Source: a virus. From it: DNA of 46,717 nucleotides. The translations under genes were made by a program, and so were the position numbers. Shown here in pieces: positions 9,606 through 46,717 of this stretch (its first letter is position 1; each line of letters starts with the position of its first letter). The notes beneath the pieces are model-generated. The model saw only the letters and a list, made by a program, of their open reading frames with translations. It was not told where the DNA came from and did no database searches. The stretch lies in IMG/VR virus record IMGVR_UViG_3300023223_001381, positions 1 through 46,717 of that record; one strand, written 5' to 3'.

Positions 9606-10637
9606 TCACTTTGCCGTTGCGTGAGTGATTAGTTCTATCTTAGCACCTCTACCCAAAGAGTTTGAATCAATTGCAGATATGGATAATTGTAATCGTCTGC
9701 CCTTCTCCCATGTACTAACAGAAATGACTTTGGGAATTGCAGCAGTAGTGCTTGTAAATTCTGAAGCGTCAATAGTTGGTAATGTGGAAAATATCGTAGT
9801 AAAGGCATTACCATTAACTGAATTCTCTTTTAGTACATCTATGGAAAATAATGTAGCACCAGTTCCAGCTATTGTTAATCCAATAATTGCATCCTCAATA
9901 CTCATATCGTATGGTGCTGGTTCTGAAACATATTTCACGCCAGTAGTTGGTAATGTAGTCTCATCAGTTAATGGATAACCCCATGTTTCCCTAGTGCCAT
10001 ATACTGTACCTGTTCCTTTAGGTAATATTCTGATATTGATATTTGCATCAGTAGCACTGATAGGCTCTATTGTTACATCATTTCCAGTTGCAGCATTAGT
10101 GATTTTGAGATGATTAACTGCACTGGCCACACTACCACAAACGATAATAGCATTACCTGAATCATCCTCAACTAGAACACCAGTATTTCCAACTGTACCA
10201 TCAAATACAATTTCTTGAAAATTAGTTCCTTGTCTCTGTAATAGTATCATTCTAGTGCCAATCATTTTCTTATCTGCTTTAGATAGTAATAGAATAGGAC
10301 CAGAGTTTGCAGGGGGTGTAGATGTGTTATGTGCGATTGTAATTTGTTCTGCACCTTGTTGAATCCATACTAAATCTTTGTCTTTAATGTCAGGTGCTGT
10401 GCCAAATTCAATAAAATCTAAAGTATCAGATGCAGCACCCTCTCCTCTAATTACAGATAATGAATCAACAAGAATGACTTTACCTGTTGCAATAATTTTA
10501 TCAGGTGCTGTAAATCCAATCATCCCAGATTCTGTATGAAGTGTTTCTGATTGAAACACATCTTTTGATACTGTTTTAGTAGGATCGTTAATTTGTGGAA
10601 TTGTTATCTCATGTGAACTATACCCATCTCTTACCAT
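9606..10637 (-). CDS. Tail fibre / minor structural protein (343 aa)
   Basis: Beta-rich, Gly/Thr/Ser-rich protein. The segment VTIEPISATDANINIRILPKGTGTVYG near residue 195-220 is of the 'N-I-x-I-x-P-K-G-T-G-x-V' type common in phage fibre shafts. No enzymatic motif. It is followed within 10 nt by the lectin-like gene and preceded by a 186-residue structural gene. Confidence 0.55.
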   Translation of the reverse strand: MVRDGYSSHEITIPQINDPTKTVSKDVFQSETLHTESGMIGFTAPDKIIATGKVILVDSLSVIRGEGAASDTLDFIEFGTAPDIKDKDLVWIQQGAEQITIAHNTSTPPANSGPILLLSKADKKMIGTRMILLQRQGTNFQEIVFDGTVGNTGVLVEDDSGNAIIVCGSVASAVNHLKITNAATGNDVTIEPISATDANINIRILPKGTGTVYGTRETWGYPLTDETTLPTTGVKYVSEPAPYDMSIEDAIIGLTIAGTGATLFSIDVLKENSVNGNAFTTIFSTLPTIDASEFTSTTAAIPKVISVSTWEKGRRLQLSISAIDSNSLGRGAKIELITHATAK

Positions 10638-10649
10638 TGATTTTCACCA

Positions 10650-11210
10650 CTAACCAAGAGTACCTGTCCAAGTTACAGTAAGAGTATCACCGATTTGGAG
10701 AGTTACATCTGCTGAAAATTCTCTTGCGTGGGTAATTTGTCCACCAATTGTATTTTGATTAAATAATGCTGATTTATGAACTGCTGTGTGTATTGCAGTT
10801 GCTGTAAATGTATGTGCTAGTGTTGTAACATTAGTTCCTACAACGTGAGTAATAGTTGAGGCTTGTGTTCTAGTTAATCCACCTGCGACAATTTCTCCTA
10901 CTAGGGTAGTATCTGTATTTACAGGATCTGTTGCCTCTGCTGATACTGCAATTGCATTACCACCTTTAGTTCCTGCAGCTACGTTTGTGTAAAATTGATT
11001 ATGAAGAAAATCACGACCACCTAAAGTTGTAAGATTTAGAACATCTCTTTGAATTAATTTCTCATTCCATTTTCCTTTATTTTTAATTACAGTAACATAT
11101 CCATGTTGACTAGAATTATCTTCAAATAATTCTCTTGCCTGTTTATGTGAGATAGACGAATTATCATCTATCGGTATATCCTCTGAGATTTTTACAATTT
11201 CAGGTTTCAT
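10650..11210 (-). CDS. Phage tail/virion protein with GDTLTVTWT C-terminus (186 aa)
   Basis: The pattern DTTLVGEI-x-G-L-x-R-x-Q-A...H-x-x-GTNVTTLAHTFTAT...ALFN...GDTLTVTWTG is found in a widespread family of small beta-sandwich proteins of tailed viruses that sit with fibre or decoration genes. The exact role is unknown. It overlaps the preceding zinc-ribbon gene by 4 nt. Confidence 0.5.
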   Translation of the reverse strand: MKPEIVKISEDIPIDDNSSISHKQARELFEDNSSQHGYVTVIKNKGKWNEKLIQRDVLNLTTLGGRDFLHNQFYTNVAAGTKGGNAIAVSAEATDPVNTDTTLVGEIVAGGLTRTQASTITHVVGTNVTTLAHTFTATAIHTAVHKSALFNQNTIGGQITHAREFSADVTLQIGDTLTVTWTGTLG

Positions 11211-11458
11211 TGTACCTCTCCTGCCTCTTTTATTTCTGGTACATTAGGCATTTTTGATAAACATTCTTTACATAATTGTCCTTGTGGACTTCTCATAGCT
11301 TCTGGTGATAATTTTTGTTTAGGTTGAATGTGTAGTTTTTTACCGCATTTACCTGCACATGGCGTATGGGTGTCATATTCATGCTCTATTTCTGCACAAT
11401 GCTTATCCCATTCATCAGGTTTTTCAGTTTGAAAATCATGTAAACCACATCTAAACAT
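11207..11458 (-). CDS. Small zinc-binding protein (C2H2-like plus CxxC) heading the fibre operon
   Basis: 83 residues. FRCGLHDF...EWDKHCAEIEHEYDTHTPCAGKCGKK gives a finger-like set of Cys/His, and QLCKECLSKMP supplies a CxxC. The promoter box lies 25 nt upstream of its ATG, so it is probably translated from a leaderless mRNA. A zinc protein heading a structural operon could be a regulator or a virion zinc protein. Confidence 0.7.
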   Translation of the reverse strand: MFRCGLHDFQTEKPDEWDKHCAEIEHEYDTHTPCAGKCGKKLHIQPKQKLSPEAMRSPQGQLCKECLSKMPNVPEIKEAGEVQ

Positions 11459-11482
11459 TATGTATTATTTTGTAATTTAGAA

Positions 11483-11495
11483 TTAAAGAATTATC
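11483..11495 (-). promoter_or_regulatory. Leaderless-type promoter box (11458 operon)
   Basis: Minus strand GATAATTCTTTAA, 25 nt upstream of the ATG at 11458. Confidence 0.6.
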
Positions 11496-11588
11496 TTAAA
11501 ATTTTACCGATCCTCAAATGAAACTATCTGATTCTATGAAACCCTATTCATTGATACATGACAGTCATTATTGTATTCCCAATATCAC

Positions 11589-14500
11589 TTATGGATTTTG
11601 AGAGTAGATAGTTGCGTATAATATTGTAATGGTTGCAGCACCTGCGTTTCTTGTAATTTGTGGTTTGATTTGATCACCTTTAACTGCAAATAATGGGAAT
11701 GTCTTAGATATACTTGCATCTTCACTTTTGATTGCCACCAATGCTTCGACTGGGTCAGGTAAATCTACAAATCCACTACCTCTGTCTATTTGCCATTTAA
11801 ATCTAAATTCGGTTGCTGAGGCATTGTTGGTGATTCCAGTATAATCAGAAGTAATGAATCCATCATGTGGTTCATTACTTATACATTCAAATATTCCATT
11901 TATCGCATCAATTAATTTCCATCGTTCCATGTTTGAACCTCTAATAAGAGCATCACCTGCTGTTCCAAAGACAATATCATTAAATGTATTATTTACTGCA
12001 ATAGGACTGGGTTCACTATTATTATTTACAAAAGCAGATGCAATGGATTTACTGTCAGCACTTCCAGGATTACCAAATGCTAAAACTCTTGGGTCTTTTT
12101 GGTCTAACCCTTTGGTACTCCAAGTTCCAGCTATTGTGGTGTCAAATATAGCAGCGACATCAAATGAGTTTGTCTGAATATTATAAATTAAAAATCCACC
12201 ATCATACATTGTTGATAGAGTTGTGTCAAGTGTGACTCCTGTCCCCAGTGTCAAACCATGTGCTGTTGCTGTAATGGTTACACCATTTACTAGATAACTA
12301 CCAACTGTTTCATTAGTGCCAAAAACAATAACATCAACTTCAAAAGTTGTAGCAGTTCTTGCTGTAACTATCCCAGTTTGATTATATCCAGGATTTGATA
12401 CAAATCCAGATATTGTTACAGTAGAGCCTAAAAGTGGCGATGTTCCTGCATGTGTAAATGATGCAATGCCACCAGAATCAGTAACACCAGTTATTGCAGT
12501 TGCTGCAATAGAATTATTTGCAACAACAGTAAAATTACCTGTTGCCCCTGATGTGTCAAATAAACCAGATGGTGCATCTATTTGAGAATCTTTAAGTAGG
12601 AATTTCTGGTCATTTGGTAGTCCTGCATCTAGTCTGACAAGTGTTTCACCAGACAGTAAATTACCACCAACATCTCCGATGGAAAATTGTTGTCCTGGTC
12701 TATGAGCACTATCTTTGATAACTATTACAGGTTTGTTAGTGCTTACACCTGTTGTACTGAATACTCCAAACTGTTTGATGATAGCAGCAAAAACACCATC
12801 AAGATTTAAAGAATCTGTCCAATTAACAAAAGTAGTTCCATTTTGGATAAGTAAAGTTGGTCCAAGAAGTCCACCTTTTTGTCTTTTAAGAGTACCTAAA
12901 TTAAAACCAACAACAGGAGCACTATCTAAAGTTAATCTGTCTGTAAGTATGCCTAAGAATTGTCCCTGAAAATCCATGAATGTAACAGGTGTAGGAAATA
13001 TAGGATTAACAAATGCTATTCCTTCAGCAACAATATCTCCGCCCACTACTGTAAATAATGGTGATGCAGGATTTGCATACGCAAATATATCCGCATCACC
13101 TTCTTCTGTTATTTTGATACTTCCACTTATGCCAGTTATAGAGAATCTAGTTGCTGTCGCAATTGTTGTTTTGAATTTAAGAGTTCTAGATGTATTTGTT
13201 TGTGTGATTACTCCTGCAGTTGCTAGTGCTTCAAAGTCACCAGCAGAATTAATTATATTAATTCCAGGTGAATCATTATGATCTTGTAATGTTAATGCAG
13301 TTGAGCCAATAGTTGGAGTTGTGGTATTTGTTAATTTGTAAGTTAAAGTAGAGTTGAGTGTTCCTTCCAATATTCTAATGTTTGATCCTGATACCTCATC
13401 ATTCCCATCAAAGTCAAATGCTCTAACCCATGCACCAGAAGCTGTAACGTATATTCCATTATCTGCTGGTACAGTTTGATTTTTTACTAAAATTCTACTT
13501 GTACTTGTTAATATTCCATCTATTGTTTGCTCACCAGTTAAAGTAACATTTGCAATAGTTGCAAGTTGTACTGGCTCCTTCCATTTTTGGAATGGTAGTA
13601 ATCCTGTAACATTCAAATTGAAATCTTTGTCAACGTAAATTTGTCTTACTTTGGATGAATTTCTTATTTGAAATATATCAACTGTCTGTGTACCAAAGGC
13701 ATCAATTACTTGTGCAGTTTTAGATACACCACCTGCTTTTACATGCAAGTTTGCTTGAATTGCTGACTGTGGAGTTGAAGTAACATCAAATCCTACTCCA
13801 ACATTTGAGATTAAATTACCAAGATTGATGTGTGTGTTTAATGCACCATTACCACTTACTCCACCAATGTTTGGTACTGGTATGCCTACTGTATATCTGA
13901 AAATATTTTTACTGACATTATTAAAGTCAGATAATTGTCCGATTCCTAATTGCATATTTCCAGCAGCGTTTAAAATATTACTTATGAAAACGCCATCAGC
14001 AGTCATATTTCCACCAAAAAATCCATTTCCAGTGAGTAGCATTCCTCTCTTTGCCTGAGTGGTTTGTTGAACAATACTAAAGTCTGCTGCAACAGTAGTT
14101 CCACCAATTTGTACTGAACCATCTGATACATCAACATGAAGTATATTATTTGCTACTGTTAAATCCCCAAATGATGTGAGACTTTTTGTTACGGATAATT
14201 GACCACCAACTAGGGCATCATATCCAACATTGAGGGAGGAACCAATAATAGCACCACCGATTATAACATCATTTAGAACAGTTATTGCACCTGTCTCAAT
14301 ATTTCCAATTCGAGCTGTTGGTGTATCTACTCCATGAAGATCAATTATAGAAAATGAGTTGTTTGTAGGTGATGTAACATAAACATGCTTACCAACTGCA
14401 AATACAGAATTAACTCCTGCCAAAACAGTAGGACTAGAGACCACACCTGTAATTCCAGGGGTACTTGGGTTTTGGATGTTGATTTGTGTGACAGTTTCTG

Positions 14501-33845: not shown

Positions 33846-34153
33846 GTTACAAGCTCCATGGATATTGGTTTGCGCGATTGTTTTTTTACTAGCCATACTA
33901 TGATTTTTCCATTCATGTCAGTTGCAAAGACTTGTAATTTTTTGTACTCTGCAGGAGAAATGTATGGTTCTTTCTTACTAGAAAATTTTAGTTGAGCTTC
34001 ATTGTGTCTGCCGTCTGGTGAGACCCACCATATGTCCGTAACTCCTTCACTGTGATAGAATCTACCACCCTTGATAGCTTTTTCATCTCTGATTAGTTTA
34101 GCTAAAAATCTAGCTTCAAAGGAAACACCTTTTCTGTAATTGAAATTAGGCAC
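33842..34153 (-). CDS. Archaeal Holliday-junction resolvase (Hjc-like)
   Basis: 103 residues. The catalytic residues align with Sulfolobus Hjc E12, S32, D42, E55, K57 as E13 (GVSFEARF), S35, D40 (SEGVTDIWW), Q54 and K56 (NEAQLKF); only the E-to-Q change is unusual. The fold pattern YRKG...F...A.YKKLQVFA is typical. Would cut four-way junctions in replicating or recombining viral DNA. GTG start; overlaps the methyltransferase gene by 8 nt. Confidence 0.7.
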   Translation of the reverse strand: MPNFNYRKGVSFEARFLAKLIRDEKAIKGGRFYHSEGVTDIWWVSPDGRHNEAQLKFSSKKEPYISPAEYKKLQVFATDMNGKIIVWLVKKQSRKPISMELVT

Positions 34154-35324
34154 TTGAAATCAAACTCCGTGCTGTTTTGTAATGTTCTGTATCTACTTCA
34201 CACCCTATGAATTGTCTCTTTAATTTTTTAGCTGATATTCCAAATGTACCTGATCCTAAAAATGGATCATATACAATTTCATTTTCTATAGTGAGATATT
34301 TGATATAGTAATCTGATTCGATTGTACTCTGAGCCCACTCGTGTAATTCCTTTCCTTGAAATTCTGATTGAATGAAATCTTTAACAAACTCTCCCTCATA
34401 CTTTCCTTTGACAAACCATAACATTATCTTACAGGAGACTAGAATCTTTTTACCAAAGACTGATGCAGAAGGACCTGAATGTTTTACAGTGATAGGCCAA
34501 TGGAATTTTAATCCATATTTCTCCATGATCTTCCCTACTTCGATAATATTTCCCTGACCTACGTAACAAATTAGAGAACCACCTTCTCGTAATACTCTAG
34601 CTGCTTGTATGGCCAAGTCCTCATAGAGGTGTAGGAATTTATCGTGATAAGGTGGATCTGTAAAAATTAATGAAATAGTATCTGATTCAATGTTTAACTT
34701 TTGAAACTCTGTATTGTGTAATGTAATGGTATCAGGGAGATTGACTTGAATCTTTTTGATAGCTTGTATTCTTTCTTTTTTCTTTTGTTCTTTGTTTATC
34801 TTTTTGTACTCTCTTGATATTGAGGTGTTGGGATTTCCATCACGTAACTTTTGTTTTACTGATTCTGGAGCTTCCTCGATAATCTTCTTTGCTCTCTCAA
34901 ATGTACCTCGTGTTACGCCTATCGCATCTGCTGTATGTTGTACTGCTCTGCCTGAGGTAGCCTCATTTGAGGACACCTTATCTTTTAATCTCTGTTTAGC
35001 TAAATCTGCATTAATTTTATGCAACTCCATACCAAGCTCTGATTTTTGATAATCATTGAGCTGTCGTCTCTTTAGGTTGCATTCGATTACAAATTTTTTC
35101 TCTAGTAATTTGTCTGTAAATTCTTTTATGACGCATTTTATTTGTATTTTTAATTCTTGACAAGCTCTAAATCTGTGATGTCCATCTAGGACTATTCCTT
35201 CTTTATTTACTATTATTGAATTCCATAACCCATCTTCTTTAATTGATTTTTTCAGACTTTGATACTCTACATCAGATACTTTGGGTACTAGATTCTGATA
35301 TTCATTAACAAGAGTTAGCTTCAT
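34146..35324 (-). CDS. ParB-like domain fused to N6-adenine/N4-cytosine DNA methyltransferase
   Basis: 392 residues. N-terminal ParB/Srx domain: IVLDGHHRFRACQEL at 44-58. A helical linker with GVTRGTFERAKKII follows. The C-terminal methyltransferase has TDPPY near 222 and DPFLGSGTFGISAKKLKR near 352, motif order beta class. ParB-MTase fusions of this build are common in phages. Second adenine methyltransferase of the genome. Stop overlaps the resolvase start. Confidence 0.85.
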   Translation of the reverse strand: MKLTLVNEYQNLVPKVSDVEYQSLKKSIKEDGLWNSIIVNKEGIVLDGHHRFRACQELKIQIKCVIKEFTDKLLEKKFVIECNLKRRQLNDYQKSELGMELHKINADLAKQRLKDKVSSNEATSGRAVQHTADAIGVTRGTFERAKKIIEEAPESVKQKLRDGNPNTSISREYKKINKEQKKKERIQAIKKIQVNLPDTITLHNTEFQKLNIESDTISLIFTDPPYHDKFLHLYEDLAIQAARVLREGGSLICYVGQGNIIEVGKIMEKYGLKFHWPITVKHSGPSASVFGKKILVSCKIMLWFVKGKYEGEFVKDFIQSEFQGKELHEWAQSTIESDYYIKYLTIENEIVYDPFLGSGTFGISAKKLKRQFIGCEVDTEHYKTARSLISSA

Positions 35325-38720: not shown

Positions 38721-39848
38721 TCAACTAGATGCAATGTTACGTCTAGCATTTTCTTGCTTCATTGCTTTTATCTCTTGGTTTGATGATTCAATTGCTTGTT
38801 TCATCACATCTATTTCTTGTTGTTGTATTGTAAATTTCTTGTTTGCTTCTTTTAATTTCTTGATCTCGATATTTTTCTTTGTCAAATCAAATACGGATAT
38901 ACTGGATTCAATCTCATCCCATAACTCTATTTTTTCATTTAATGTACGTCTCTGGTATTGTTGTAGATATGCACCATGACCAATAAATGCATGAGCCATA
39001 TCTTTACTATCAGATAAAGCATCTAATACATGAGTGAAAAAGTAAGCTCTAAAACAATACAGGTTAATCTTCATTCTACCTGTAGTTTCAAATTTATCAT
39101 CAAATCCAACTTTTTCACAATAATTTTTAAAGACCTTATCCTCGTTACTACGAGCATATTTGAGATTTGTATTTTTACTAAACACCTGAGAATCCCTAGT
39201 TTGTGTCTTTTCAAGTAAATTGGTAATGTAAGGAGAACATTCCCTTGAAAATTTTATGGTCCTAGCGATTTTCTTTTTTGTTAATTGAGCTGGAATTAAT
39301 GCAGTGTAACAATTGTAATCTCTATTCCAAGTTATATCACGTTTCCTTAATCCAGTAATTTCAATAGGCCTAGCACCTGTGGAGATTAAACATAGATAGT
39401 ATGCTATTTTGTGGTATTTTGAAACTTTGAAAATTAAAAGTATCTCATCAAGTGATAATGCATGTGGTTCTTCATAGAGAGCTTGAGGGTATACTAGGTC
39501 TTTTGTATCAACTGCAATTTTTTTGTATCTTAGATATTTGTTAAGACCACTAATTTTTACACGAATTACACTAACTACATTACTTTGATGGAGATGATGA
39601 ATCCATTCCTGAACTAGATCTGTTATCAGTTCATCTTTTTGATCTTCATCATCAAAGGATTTGATGTAATCTATTATTTCATCTCTACTTTTACCATAGT
39701 TACCTACACAATAATTATCAAATTGTCTGTTAGCAATTTCAATTCCTTCTAGTCTTGCAGAACTAAGACCTTGCCATTTTATCATAAAATTTTCCCAATT
39801 CTTTATTTTACGTAATGGTTTCTTGGTAGTGAAATCTAACTTTTGCAT
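38721..39848 (-). CDS. int: Tyrosine recombinase (integrase)
   Basis: 375 residues. The N-terminal core-binding domain includes EWIHHLHQSNVVSVIRVKIS; the catalytic residues are R in STGARPIEI (about 160), a Lys in LTKKK, an R in NLYCFRAYF (about 266; the usual His is Tyr/Cys), GH in FIGHGAYL, and a nucleophile Tyr in LQQYQRR (about 297). After it comes a 55-residue coiled coil (KKNIEIKKLKEANKKFTIQQ). It lies next to a tRNA gene and repeated elements, suggesting site-specific integration. An inverted repeat sits 30-50 nt upstream of its start. Confidence 0.8.
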   Translation of the reverse strand: MQKLDFTTKKPLRKIKNWENFMIKWQGLSSARLEGIEIANRQFDNYCVGNYGKSRDEIIDYIKSFDDEDQKDELITDLVQEWIHHLHQSNVVSVIRVKISGLNKYLRYKKIAVDTKDLVYPQALYEEPHALSLDEILLIFKVSKYHKIAYYLCLISTGARPIEITGLRKRDITWNRDYNCYTALIPAQLTKKKIARTIKFSRECSPYITNLLEKTQTRDSQVFSKNTNLKYARSNEDKVFKNYCEKVGFDDKFETTGRMKINLYCFRAYFFTHVLDALSDSKDMAHAFIGHGAYLQQYQRRTLNEKIELWDEIESSISVFDLTKKNIEIKKLKEANKKFTIQQQEIDVMKQAIESSNQEIKAMKQENARRNIASS

Positions 39849-39896: not shown

Positions 39897-40034
39897 TGTA
39901 AACCCTTAACGTGGGTCAAAAATATGACTTTTATCGTGAAATTTTAGGTATAAAATCAGGACTACTGAGAACAAAACCCAAAATTATTTATTAACAATTT
40001 CAACGTAACAAAAATGTCTTGAATTATAACTAAT

Positions 40035-40057: not shown

Positions 40058-40157
40058 GTAATTTTTCAGTTATGATAATTCAAGACAATGAAAATGAAGC
40101 CTTATACCCCGGAAGGCATAAGGTGGATTTTTATTATTTCTAGATTTTTAATTTAGT

Positions 40158-40239
40158 GCTGTGGTACGCAAGTCAGGTATGCGGGAAGCCTTCTAAGCTT
40201 CTGCCTTCCGGTTCGGGGGTTCGAATCCCTCCCACGGCG
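40158..40239 (+). tRNA. Type II (long variable arm) tRNA with UCU anticodon
   Basis: Complete cloverleaf: acceptor GCTGTGG/CCACGGC, D-stem CGCA/TGCG, anticodon stem GAAGC/GCTTC with loop CTTCTAA (anticodon TCT at 40192-40194), a 13-nt variable region with a 3-bp stem (GCC/GGT), T-stem GGGGG/CCCTC with TTCGAAT, discriminator G. No CCA is encoded. UCU reads Arg AGA codons, but the long variable arm and the loop (one base from CTGCTAA of Ser-GCU) look like a serine tRNA. A T-run follows (40241-40245). Confidence 0.85.
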
Positions 40240-40435
40240 CTTTTTAATTAAAAAATGATGATTGCCGGTAATAACTCAATGGGTCATTTCCAAAGAATTA
40301 AGCAATCATCAAAGAATCTTTGGAATTATTCCTTTAAGGTATTTTGGTTTGATGGGGATTAAAGTTGATTTTTACGCACAAAAATTCATGTGATCGCAAA
40401 CGCTATTATATTATTAAGGTTAATAATTATTAAGT

Positions 40436-45061: not shown

Positions 45062-46090
45062 TCATGGCTCCGTTACTATTATTACACTTCCGCCTGTTTG
45101 AAATGAAGCTCTTAATTCTGTTTTTCCAGCTCCTGTTGGTACAGTAAATAATCTAACTGCATTAGTGACACCACTTGGTTTAAATCCAGTTGCATAACCC
45201 TCAACAATTCCTAAACTACTTTTAACCCAAGCATTAGCGTATGTTCTTGATGATGTTCCAATATCATCTGTATTATCCACATTAGCTGTTATATCGCCTA
45301 TCGTGTCAGCGATAAAAGTTACACTATCTGATGCTGAATTTCCTAAAGTTACATTTCCATTAAAATTGGTAACACCAAAATAATTATTAGTTCCAGTCCA
45401 AGATTGAGATACAACACCTAAACCAGCTAGTGTTGTTGTAGTGTTAGGTAATGAGTATGTTCTAGTTGTTGATGATGAAATTAATGAAGCATCAAAATTT
45501 ATCACTTTAGTATTATCTGAAAAATCTTTTATTCCAAAATTACTATCTATTACAGTTGTAATCCCAGCAAAAATATTAGTTCCAGTCCATGTTTGAGATA
45601 ATACACTTAACCCTGCCATTGTTGTTGATGAATTAGGAATTGTAATTGTTCTAGTTGTTGCAGTAGTAAATCCATCAACTTCAAATTTTAATAATTTAGA
45701 TATATCTGAACTTCCTTTGATTAATGGATCTGAATCTGTAAATGGTGGTGATGAACCACCACCAGAACCTAATGTAACATTAGAATCAGGCATTGTAATT
45801 GTTCTTGTTTGTCCTGATGTTATTCCACTTAAATCCCATATTACCTGTTTTGTAGGATCACTAGGATCTTGCATAATGAAATTATTAGTTGTTCTAATCT
45901 TTGTAATCCCAAAAAATGTGTTAGTACCAGTCCAAGATTGATCTAATACTCCTAAACCAGCTAAGCTTGTTGTAGTATTTGGAAGAGTTAAAGTTCGATT
46001 GTCTGTATGATTTGATTGTAACGATAAGACTTTCCCTGTTGTAGCTCCAGCTAGTAAAAAATTGAGCTGTTTAGTAATATCAGTCGTATT
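45062..46090 (-). CDS. Repetitive tail fibre, C-terminal part (out of frame with upstream part)
   Basis: Open from 46090 to the stop at 45062 with no stop between (an internal ATG at 45874 also exists). About four repeats of about 70 residues with TRTITIPNSSTTMAGLSVLS, Q-T-W-T-G-T-N, I-K-D-F-S-D. The C-terminal 60 residues (GYATGFKPSGVTNAVRLFTV) form a non-repeated cap. A net frameshift at 46091-46093 separates it from the upstream half, exactly at the edge of the 131-bp repeat; without that it would be one protein of about 750 residues with the part beginning at 739. Confidence 0.65.
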   Translation of the reverse strand, partial: NTTDITKQLNFLLAGATTGKVLSLQSNHTDNRTLTLPNTTTSLAGLGVLDQSWTGTNTFFGITKIRTTNNFIMQDPSDPTKQVIWDLSGITSGQTRTITMPDSNVTLGSGGGSSPPFTDSDPLIKGSSDISKLLKFEVDGFTTATTRTITIPNSSTTMAGLSVLSQTWTGTNIFAGITTVIDSNFGIKDFSDNTKVINFDASLISSSTTRTYSLPNTTTTLAGLGVVSQSWTGTNNYFGVTNFNGNVTLGNSASDSVTFIADTIGDITANVDNTDDIGTSSRTYANAWVKSSLGIVEGYATGFKPSGVTNAVRLFTVPTGAGKTELRASFQTGGSVIIVTEP

Positions 46091-46092
46091 TT
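45961..46092. repeat. Internal copy of the terminal repeat
   Basis: 132 bases identical to 1-132 (131 of them also to the right end). Encodes the same fibre repeat unit; its right edge coincides with the frameshift. Confidence 0.9.
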
Positions 46093-46717
46093 ACTAATCC
46101 CGTTAAACGTATTTGTTCCAGTCCAAGATTGTATAGTTCCAAGACCAGCTAGTGTTGTTGTGCTATTAGGTAATGTAATTGTTCTAGCAGAAGTAAATGC
46201 AGTTGCAATAGTACCAACTATTCCACTTGAGTTTGCAGATAATTGAAAATTGAGCTGTTTAGTAATATTACCACCATCTTGAATGAAGAAATTAGTATCA
46301 CGAATTGTTGTATTGCCTACAAATACATTAGTTCCAGTCCACGTTTGAGATAAAACACCAAGACCAGCTATAGTTGTAGTAGTATCGGGTAATGTAAGTA
46401 TTCTATTATCAGAATGATTTGATACAATTGATATTACTTTGCCTGTTGTTGCACCACCTAATACAAAGTTTAGCTGTTTAGTAATGTCAGCAGTATTTTG
46501 AATGAAAAAGTTAGATGTTCTAACACTTGTAATCCCAGCAAAAATATTTTCTCCTGTCCATGTTTGGCTAAGAACTCCTAAACCAGCTAAGCTTGTTGTA
46601 GTATTTGGAAGAGTTAAAGTTCGATTGTCTGTATGATTTGATTGTAACGATAAGACTTTCCCTGTTGTAGCTCCAGCTAGTAAAAAATTGAGCTGTTTAG
46701 TAATATCAGTCGTATTT
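46051..46717 (-). CDS. Repetitive tail fibre, middle part (joins 1-739 across the ends)
   Basis: In frame with the 739-1 frame through the 131-base repeat and open to a TAG at 46051. Encodes three fibre repeats of 71-74 residues (LAGLGVLSQTWTGTN, then V/I strand, then ITKQLNF). The next repeat spacing falls to 187 bp, not a multiple of three, which creates the stop. Confidence 0.65.
   Translation of the reverse strand, partial: NTTDITKQLNFLLAGATTGKVLSLQSNHTDNRTLTLPNTTTSLAGLGVLSQTWTGENIFAGITSVRTSNFFIQNTADITKQLNFVLGGATTGKVISIVSNHSDNRILTLPDTTTTIAGLGVLSQTWTGTNVFVGNTTIRDTNFFIQDGGNITKQLNFQLSANSSGIVGTIATAFTSARTITLPNSTTTLAGLGTIQSWTGTNTFNGISKIRLILLNSSIFY
46587..46717. repeat. Terminal direct repeat, right copy (131 bp)
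   Basis: Identical to 1-131; see left copy. Confidence 0.9.

Follow-up and report, generated by a model that had tools for sequence, protein, structure and literature searches.

Which amino acid would be delivered by a viral tRNA that joins the body of a serine tRNA to the anticodon of an arginine tRNA? The question is raised by a tRNA gene with a UCU anticodon in the IMG/VR virus record IMGVR_UViG_3300023223_001381, which probably derives from a tailed virus of Nitrososphaeria, the ammonia-oxidising archaea, and was analysed over positions 1 to 46,717 (the window; coordinates count from its first base). Seryl-tRNA synthetase (SerRS) ignores the anticodon, and tRNA identity normally forbids the combination of a serine-type body with an anticodon that reads AGA; such a tRNA should therefore mistranslate AGA, the commonest arginine codon of this virus. 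By sequence comparison, the window tRNA combines a serine-type body with the entire loop of an arginine-UCU tRNA.

Body and anticodon loop of the viral tRNA

ARAGORN made a single tRNA call in the window, a tRNA-Arg(tct) at 40158-40240 on the plus strand, and the gene scored 50.9 bits against the Rfam tRNA family (threshold 29). RNA folding gave a full cloverleaf, composed of an acceptor stem GCTGTGG/CCACGGC with discriminator G73, a D-arm CGCA-AGTCAGGTA-TGCG, an anticodon arm GAAGC-CTTCTAA-GCTTC in which the UCU anticodon supplies C35 and U36, a 13-nt variable arm laid out as T-GCC-TTCC-GGT-TC with a 3-bp stem (GCC/GGT), and a T-arm GGGGG-TTCGAAT-CCCTC, the acceptor/T branch being a canonical 7/5. 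An earlier reading of this DNA from its letters alone (the sequence-only reading) had described a perfect cloverleaf with G73 and a 13-nt variable region with its own stem, and the three analyses, together with the tRNA comparison below, confirm that description. An interpretation of the variable arm as an intron was dropped, since 8 extra nt would be too few for one and covariation links the arm to an upstream hairpin. Immediately 3′ of the tRNA, an inverted repeat (TGATGATTGC/GCAATCATCA) is present at window positions 40256-40311.

For comparison with a host, the 43 tRNAs of the Nitrosopumilus genome G005 were used, a genome that may not be that of the virus's own host, and body identity was scored over standard tRNA positions with the anticodon and variable arm excluded. 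The four G005 tRNAs nearest to the window tRNA body were exactly the four tRNA-Ser (68-72% identity), and no arginine tRNA was found among the ten nearest, in agreement with the earlier proposal of a serine-type body with an arginine (UCU) anticodon. A20, which in bacteria is the main determinant of arginine identity (PMC9976931), is present in all three arginine tRNAs of G005 and absent from the remaining 40 tRNAs, and the window tRNA has T20. The archaeal serine determinants are listed as a long variable arm, G73, G1-C72 and G30-C40 (PMC9976931), and the last three are all found in the window tRNA; however, G30-C40 does not discriminate between serine and arginine because the host tRNA-Arg(UCU) has it too. 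At its base, the variable arm leaves two 3′ nucleotides unpaired, as in host tRNA-Ser (the Ser-GCU arm is T-GTTC-GCAA-GAAC-TC), whereas host tRNA-Leu has three, and G73 of the window tRNA stands against A73 in host tRNA-Leu. The anticodon, UCU, is the feature that departs from a serine tRNA, for which NGA or GCU would be expected.

The sequence-only reading had raised the possibility that the host tRNA-Arg(UCU) might have the same long arm. That tRNA (L254) belongs to class I: its variable region has 5 nt, its body is unlike that of the window tRNA, and similarity between the two was limited to the loop and a portion of the T-arm. In the loop, CTTCTAA, the host and viral tRNAs agree at every base, including C32. 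The viral loop had also been described as one base away from the Ser-GCU loop CTGCTAA; this needs correcting, as the likely host clade has TTGCTAA, which is two bases off. A serine-like body together with a loop identical to that of the host Arg-UCU tRNA indicates a serine body carrying a complete arginine-UCU loop.

Related tRNAs and the upstream hairpin

Two scans for long-arm UCU tRNAs were performed, both pattern-limited, the first with one T-loop variant and the second with the other. The first scan of IMG/VR returned about 25 phage contigs (including L155, L157, L162, L163, L170, L176, L177 and L196, and further L197, L206, L212, L216, L219, L229, L233 and others) with long-arm UCU tRNAs that form good cloverleaves and all have G18G19A20; because A20 is kept, these are arginine tRNAs whose variable arm is enlarged. 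They resemble the window tRNA in being virus-borne and in having a long arm and UCU, but an assignment of the window tRNA to this ordinary long-arm phage type was rejected because A20 is missing. The second scan gave, among the matches listed, two contigs with class II UCU tRNAs that likewise have no A20. One (L287; 17.7 kb, 33% G+C) has a tRNA homologous to that of the window, to whose body the four host tRNA-Ser were again the nearest of the 43; the other (L290; 20.3 kb, 34% G+C) encodes two relatives of window structural proteins, shares its metagenome number with the related virus G001, and has a tRNA body nearest to the G005 Ser-UGA. Class II UCU tRNAs were not found in pattern-limited scans of 250 and 400 Nitrososphaeria genomes, in which the few matches were non-tRNAs or class I tRNAs with introns. 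A further long-arm UCU tRNA with G73 and no A20 (L393, 10408-10492) is part of an ordinary cluster of phage tRNAs and has no hairpin complement; it is possibly another serine-type UCU tRNA.

In their stems, the tRNAs of the window and L287 differ by three double compensatory changes and by three one-sided ones, the latter preserving pairing, with zero broken pairs, indicating selection for a folded tRNA and excluding a base error. The sequence-only reading had offered a base error as one alternative, and this is also at odds with the occurrence of UCU class II tRNAs lacking A20 on two independent contigs, one of them homologous. By comparison of these sequences, the viral serine-type UCU tRNA is a maintained gene, neither an error nor a product of decay.

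A 42-nt block common to the window and L287 lies directly 5′ of the tRNA and ends with ATTTTTAT, which is located at the AT peak of host tRNA promoters. Upstream of it in the block is a hairpin with the loop region CCGGAAGGCA, which matches TGCCTTCCGG of the variable arm exactly in reverse complement. The L287 block has two differences in all, and each is mirrored by a complementary change in the L287 variable arm; at the corresponding site of L290 is an unrelated hairpin, 9 nt of which are complementary to the L290 variable arm. The complementary stretch starts at -49 in the window, -49 in L287 and -51 in L290, and is 9-10 nt long, with shuffle probabilities of 0/20000, 0/20000 and 0.00125, respectively. 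Among the 151 class II tRNAs of the examined loci, a complement of at least 9 nt was seen at these three and in one AT-rich case only. Predicted duplex energies were -20.2, -20.3 and -17.3 kcal/mol for the cognate pairs, versus -5.7 to -14.5 kcal/mol when swapped. This covariation is to be read with the caveat that inverted repeats may also be homogenised by quasi-palindrome repair. The 42-nt block had zero occurrences in 400 Nitrososphaeria genomes, an IMG/VR search with the hairpin pattern matched L287 as the sole other record, and Rfam gave no family above threshold for the upstream element. A small open reading frame in the block (MKPYTPEGIRWIF...) was not supported as an explanation, as the L287 differences just keep complementarity and include zero synonymous changes. 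With a covarying hairpin beside its promoter, this tRNA gene may have a control element of its own.

The hairpin could also point to a non-translational RNA, acting for example as a decoy (bait for a host nuclease that cuts UCU loops) or as a regulatory RNA partnered with the hairpin. Such a role would fit a copied loop on a foreign body and a hairpin complementary to the variable arm at three loci, and passages in PMC10264068 and PMC11555353 describe phage tRNAs that evade tRNA-cutting defences. However, the standard tRNA core features and pairings are all intact, the promoter position is of the tRNA type, such a nuclease did not come to light (no search was aimed at it), and the hairpin, lying 5′ of the TATA box, is probably not part of the tRNA transcript, and we regard this explanation as unlikely. 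CreTA, an archaeal toxin-antitoxin pair described in part of PMC8501985 as a small RNA module that acts on tRNA function and is repressed by a guide RNA, offers a loose analogy only, as CreT sequesters tRNAs and is itself no tRNA.

Integration site, AGA codons and the amino acid carried

The nearest relative of the window integrase (in L405/L436) adjoins the 5′ side of a class I tRNA-Arg(UCU) and is divergent from it, as the window integrase is from the viral tRNA (Table 1). Similarity between the window and this locus spans the integrase and ends at TAAACCCTTAA, an 11-mer at the provirus junction, which is also found at the position of the B recognition element (BRE)/TATA box of the tRNA-Arg(UCU) promoter in Nitrosopumilus G005. 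This locus comparison suggests that the probable integration site of the virus is the promoter of tRNA-Arg(UCU), the host gene whose anticodon its own tRNA shares. As the candidate attachment (att) core spans the host BRE/TATA, the promoter is probably restored and the host tRNA probably still expressed. An interpretation of TAAACCCTTAA as a general integrase-promoter motif was rejected because it is not directly upstream of other integrases; the copy seen in L415 is distant from the tRNA, past the integrase start. No homologue of the window integrase was detected in L287 or L290, both of which are partial contigs. A single-protein peptide scan of IMG/VR and GTDB returned zero integrase homologues, and a direct search of Nitrososphaeria genomes found them.

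Two other integrases (L415 and L431) are placed likewise at a tRNA-Cys promoter, and these genes form a Nitrososphaeria tyrosine integrase family located at host tRNA promoters (BRE/TATA) rather than in tRNA bodies, with a short common core that would regenerate the promoter. The integrase data thus point to tRNA promoters, not bodies, as targets in some Nitrososphaeria elements. In L436, open reading frames beyond the integrase (9650-14108) look eukaryotic (BEACH/WD40-like by eye), and the assembly is probably chimeric or contaminated; with the contig non-archaeal-looking past the integrase, the other end of the provirus is unreadable.

Table 1. Positions of the tRNA gene, its upstream elements and the integration module in the window
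Feature	Position	Strand	Basis
Tyrosine integrase, divergent from the tRNA	38721..39848	-	Homology
Probable attP core TAAACCCTTAA, also found in the host tRNA-Arg(UCU) promoter	39899..39909	+	Locus comparison
42-nt block common to the window and L287, directly 5′ of the tRNA	40094..40135	+	Sequence comparison
Hairpin CCTTAT...ATAAGG; loop segment 40109-40118 (CCGGAAGGCA) complementary to the variable arm	40100..40123	+	
Probable TATA box ATTTTTAT of the tRNA gene, -31 to -24	40127..40134	+	Host AT-peak position
Class II tRNA, UCU anticodon, serine-type body	40158..40239	+	ARAGORN, Rfam, folding, tRNA comparison
T at position 20 (A20 in arginine tRNAs)	40178..40178	+	tRNA comparison
Anticodon loop CTTCTAA (anticodon 40192-40194)	40190..40196	+	Identical to the host tRNA-Arg(UCU) loop
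Variable arm TGCCTTCCGGTTC	40202..40214	+	Folding, tRNA comparison

An integrase 310 bp from the tRNA might suggest that the viral gene is what remains of an attachment-site tRNA, as thaumarchaeal elements commonly integrate in tRNA genes (39 of 68; PMC6563490), and the sequence-only reading had considered a damaged attachment-site tRNA. However, the stems are intact and covarying, the L287 homologue has compensatory changes and the same anticodon, similarity to the host tRNA-Arg(UCU) is confined to the loop and part of the T-arm, and the candidate att core is located about 250 bp away from the viral tRNA. Such tRNAs are moreover present in L287 and L290, in which the integrase homologue was not detected. 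A remnant of this kind, a pseudogene or a sequencing error is therefore very improbable.

The probable arrangement is reminiscent of tRNA-dependent lysogeny in actinobacteriophages (PMC10865867), which involves a tyrosine integrase, an att core of about 10 bp, a host tRNA locus and a virus that carries a tRNA with the anticodon of the attB host tRNA. It differs in that the candidate 11-bp core here lies in a promoter, which it probably restores, and in that the viral tRNA has a serine-type body.

In the window, AGA remains an arginine codon. AGA positions in alignments with related viruses correspond to arginine in 68% of cases and to serine in 1.7%, like CGT and CGA; the code is therefore standard, without reassignment of AGA, and decoding would be ambiguous at most; a genome-wide AGA-to-serine reassignment was ruled out on the same evidence. 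AGA also encodes R267 of the integrase, presumably the second catalytic arginine of tyrosine recombinases. A bias towards AGA caused by the viral tRNA was rejected, as relatives without the tRNA use AGA about equally (62-69% of arginine codons, versus 68% in the window). In metazoan mitochondria, by contrast, AGA as serine is an established code change, according to a work cited in a passage of PMC8629427.

A possible but doubtful explanation is that the tRNA is an arginine tRNA in function, accepted by a thaumarchaeal arginyl-tRNA synthetase (ArgRS) via C35 and U36 despite the missing A20, and serving to supply the virus at AGA codons or to back up the host tRNA-Arg(UCU) whose promoter is the integration site. 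The entire loop is that of the host Arg-UCU tRNA, AGA is the most frequent viral arginine codon, the integrase site is probably within the tRNA-Arg(UCU) promoter, and some phages are known to disrupt a host tRNA gene and to bring a tRNA of that isotype with them (PMC10865867). However, A20 is lost in three archaeal-virus tRNAs and kept in about 25 phage tRNAs and all G005 arginine tRNAs, and the body is closest to serine. Also against this reading are an att core that spans the host BRE/TATA and would probably leave the host tRNA expressed, L287 and L290 as partial contigs in which no integrase homologue was detected, and the related viruses that lack the tRNA and use AGA as much.

Our tentative preference is a viral tRNA that is charged with serine and reads AGA. 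The sequence-level results are the body type, the loop identity, the conservation with covariation, the promoter position and the complementarity to the hairpin. On these results, a virus-borne serine-type tRNA with the host Arg-UCU loop, apparently maintained in several tailed viruses of Nitrososphaeria, would be transcribed from its own BRE/TATA promoter and most likely charged with serine by the host SerRS. During infection or lysogeny it would then rival the host tRNA-Arg(UCU) for AGA codons, some of which would be translated as serine. SerRS recognises its substrates mainly by the variable arm, and the upstream hairpin, with a loop that matches this arm, would most likely control the tRNA. 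A fuller version, in which this is a natural missense tRNA (a SerRS substrate reading AGA) restrained by the promoter-linked hairpin through pairing of its loop with the variable arm, and with which the virus could switch on serine-for-arginine mistranslation in its host, we consider rather unlikely.

Several points weigh against charging with serine. The variable-arm stem is only 3 bp long and includes one G-U pair. Position 20 is scarcely needed by yeast ArgRS, which relies mainly on the anticodon, and no measured SerRS or ArgRS identity rules for thaumarchaea (Nitrososphaeria) were found in the literature. AGA accounts for 317 of 475 arginine codons in the window, more than any other, and aligns with arginine, so that efficient insertion of serine would harm viral proteins. 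The group is also small, with at least three archaeal-virus members (window, L287 and L290). The presence of a serine-type UCU tRNA in three contigs, one of them with a diverged homologue that has compensatory changes, raises the question of whether archaeal viruses make use of mistranslation or whether thaumarchaeal ArgRS follows unfamiliar rules.

Among known systems, the nearest functional parallel for a class II tRNA that inserts serine under a foreign anticodon comes from the allo-tRNAs, bacterial class II tRNAs with an 8/4 or 9/3 branch that insert serine regardless of their anticodon (PMC7609411). They share with the viral tRNA a serine-type long-arm structure and a non-serine anticodon, but the viral tRNA has a 7/5 branch, is carried by archaeal viruses and has a whole Arg-UCU loop; as the 8/4 or 9/3 branch is missing, it is not an allo-tRNA.

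The carrier virus and its likely host

The window contains terminase, tail-fibre and tyrosine-integrase genes and has a G+C content of 33%. Its closest terminase relative is the Nitrososphaera provirus Pro-Nvie1, and the best relatives of its integrase were found in Nitrososphaeria genomes (65% identity), pointing to a tailed virus that probably infects Nitrososphaeria, with Nitrosopumilaceae as the probable host family. Neither a tRNA of this kind nor an integrase was found in the closely related viruses G001-G004. The 131-bp terminal repeat (1-131 and 46587-46717) is identical to a third copy inside the tail-fibre repeats (45961-46091); because of this internal copy circularity of the window is not proven, and the apparent circularity of the record may be an assembly effect. 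A ParB-like/DNA methyltransferase fusion is encoded at 34146-35324, and its full-length relative (28%) is a protein region of the Methanoculleus virus Blf4.
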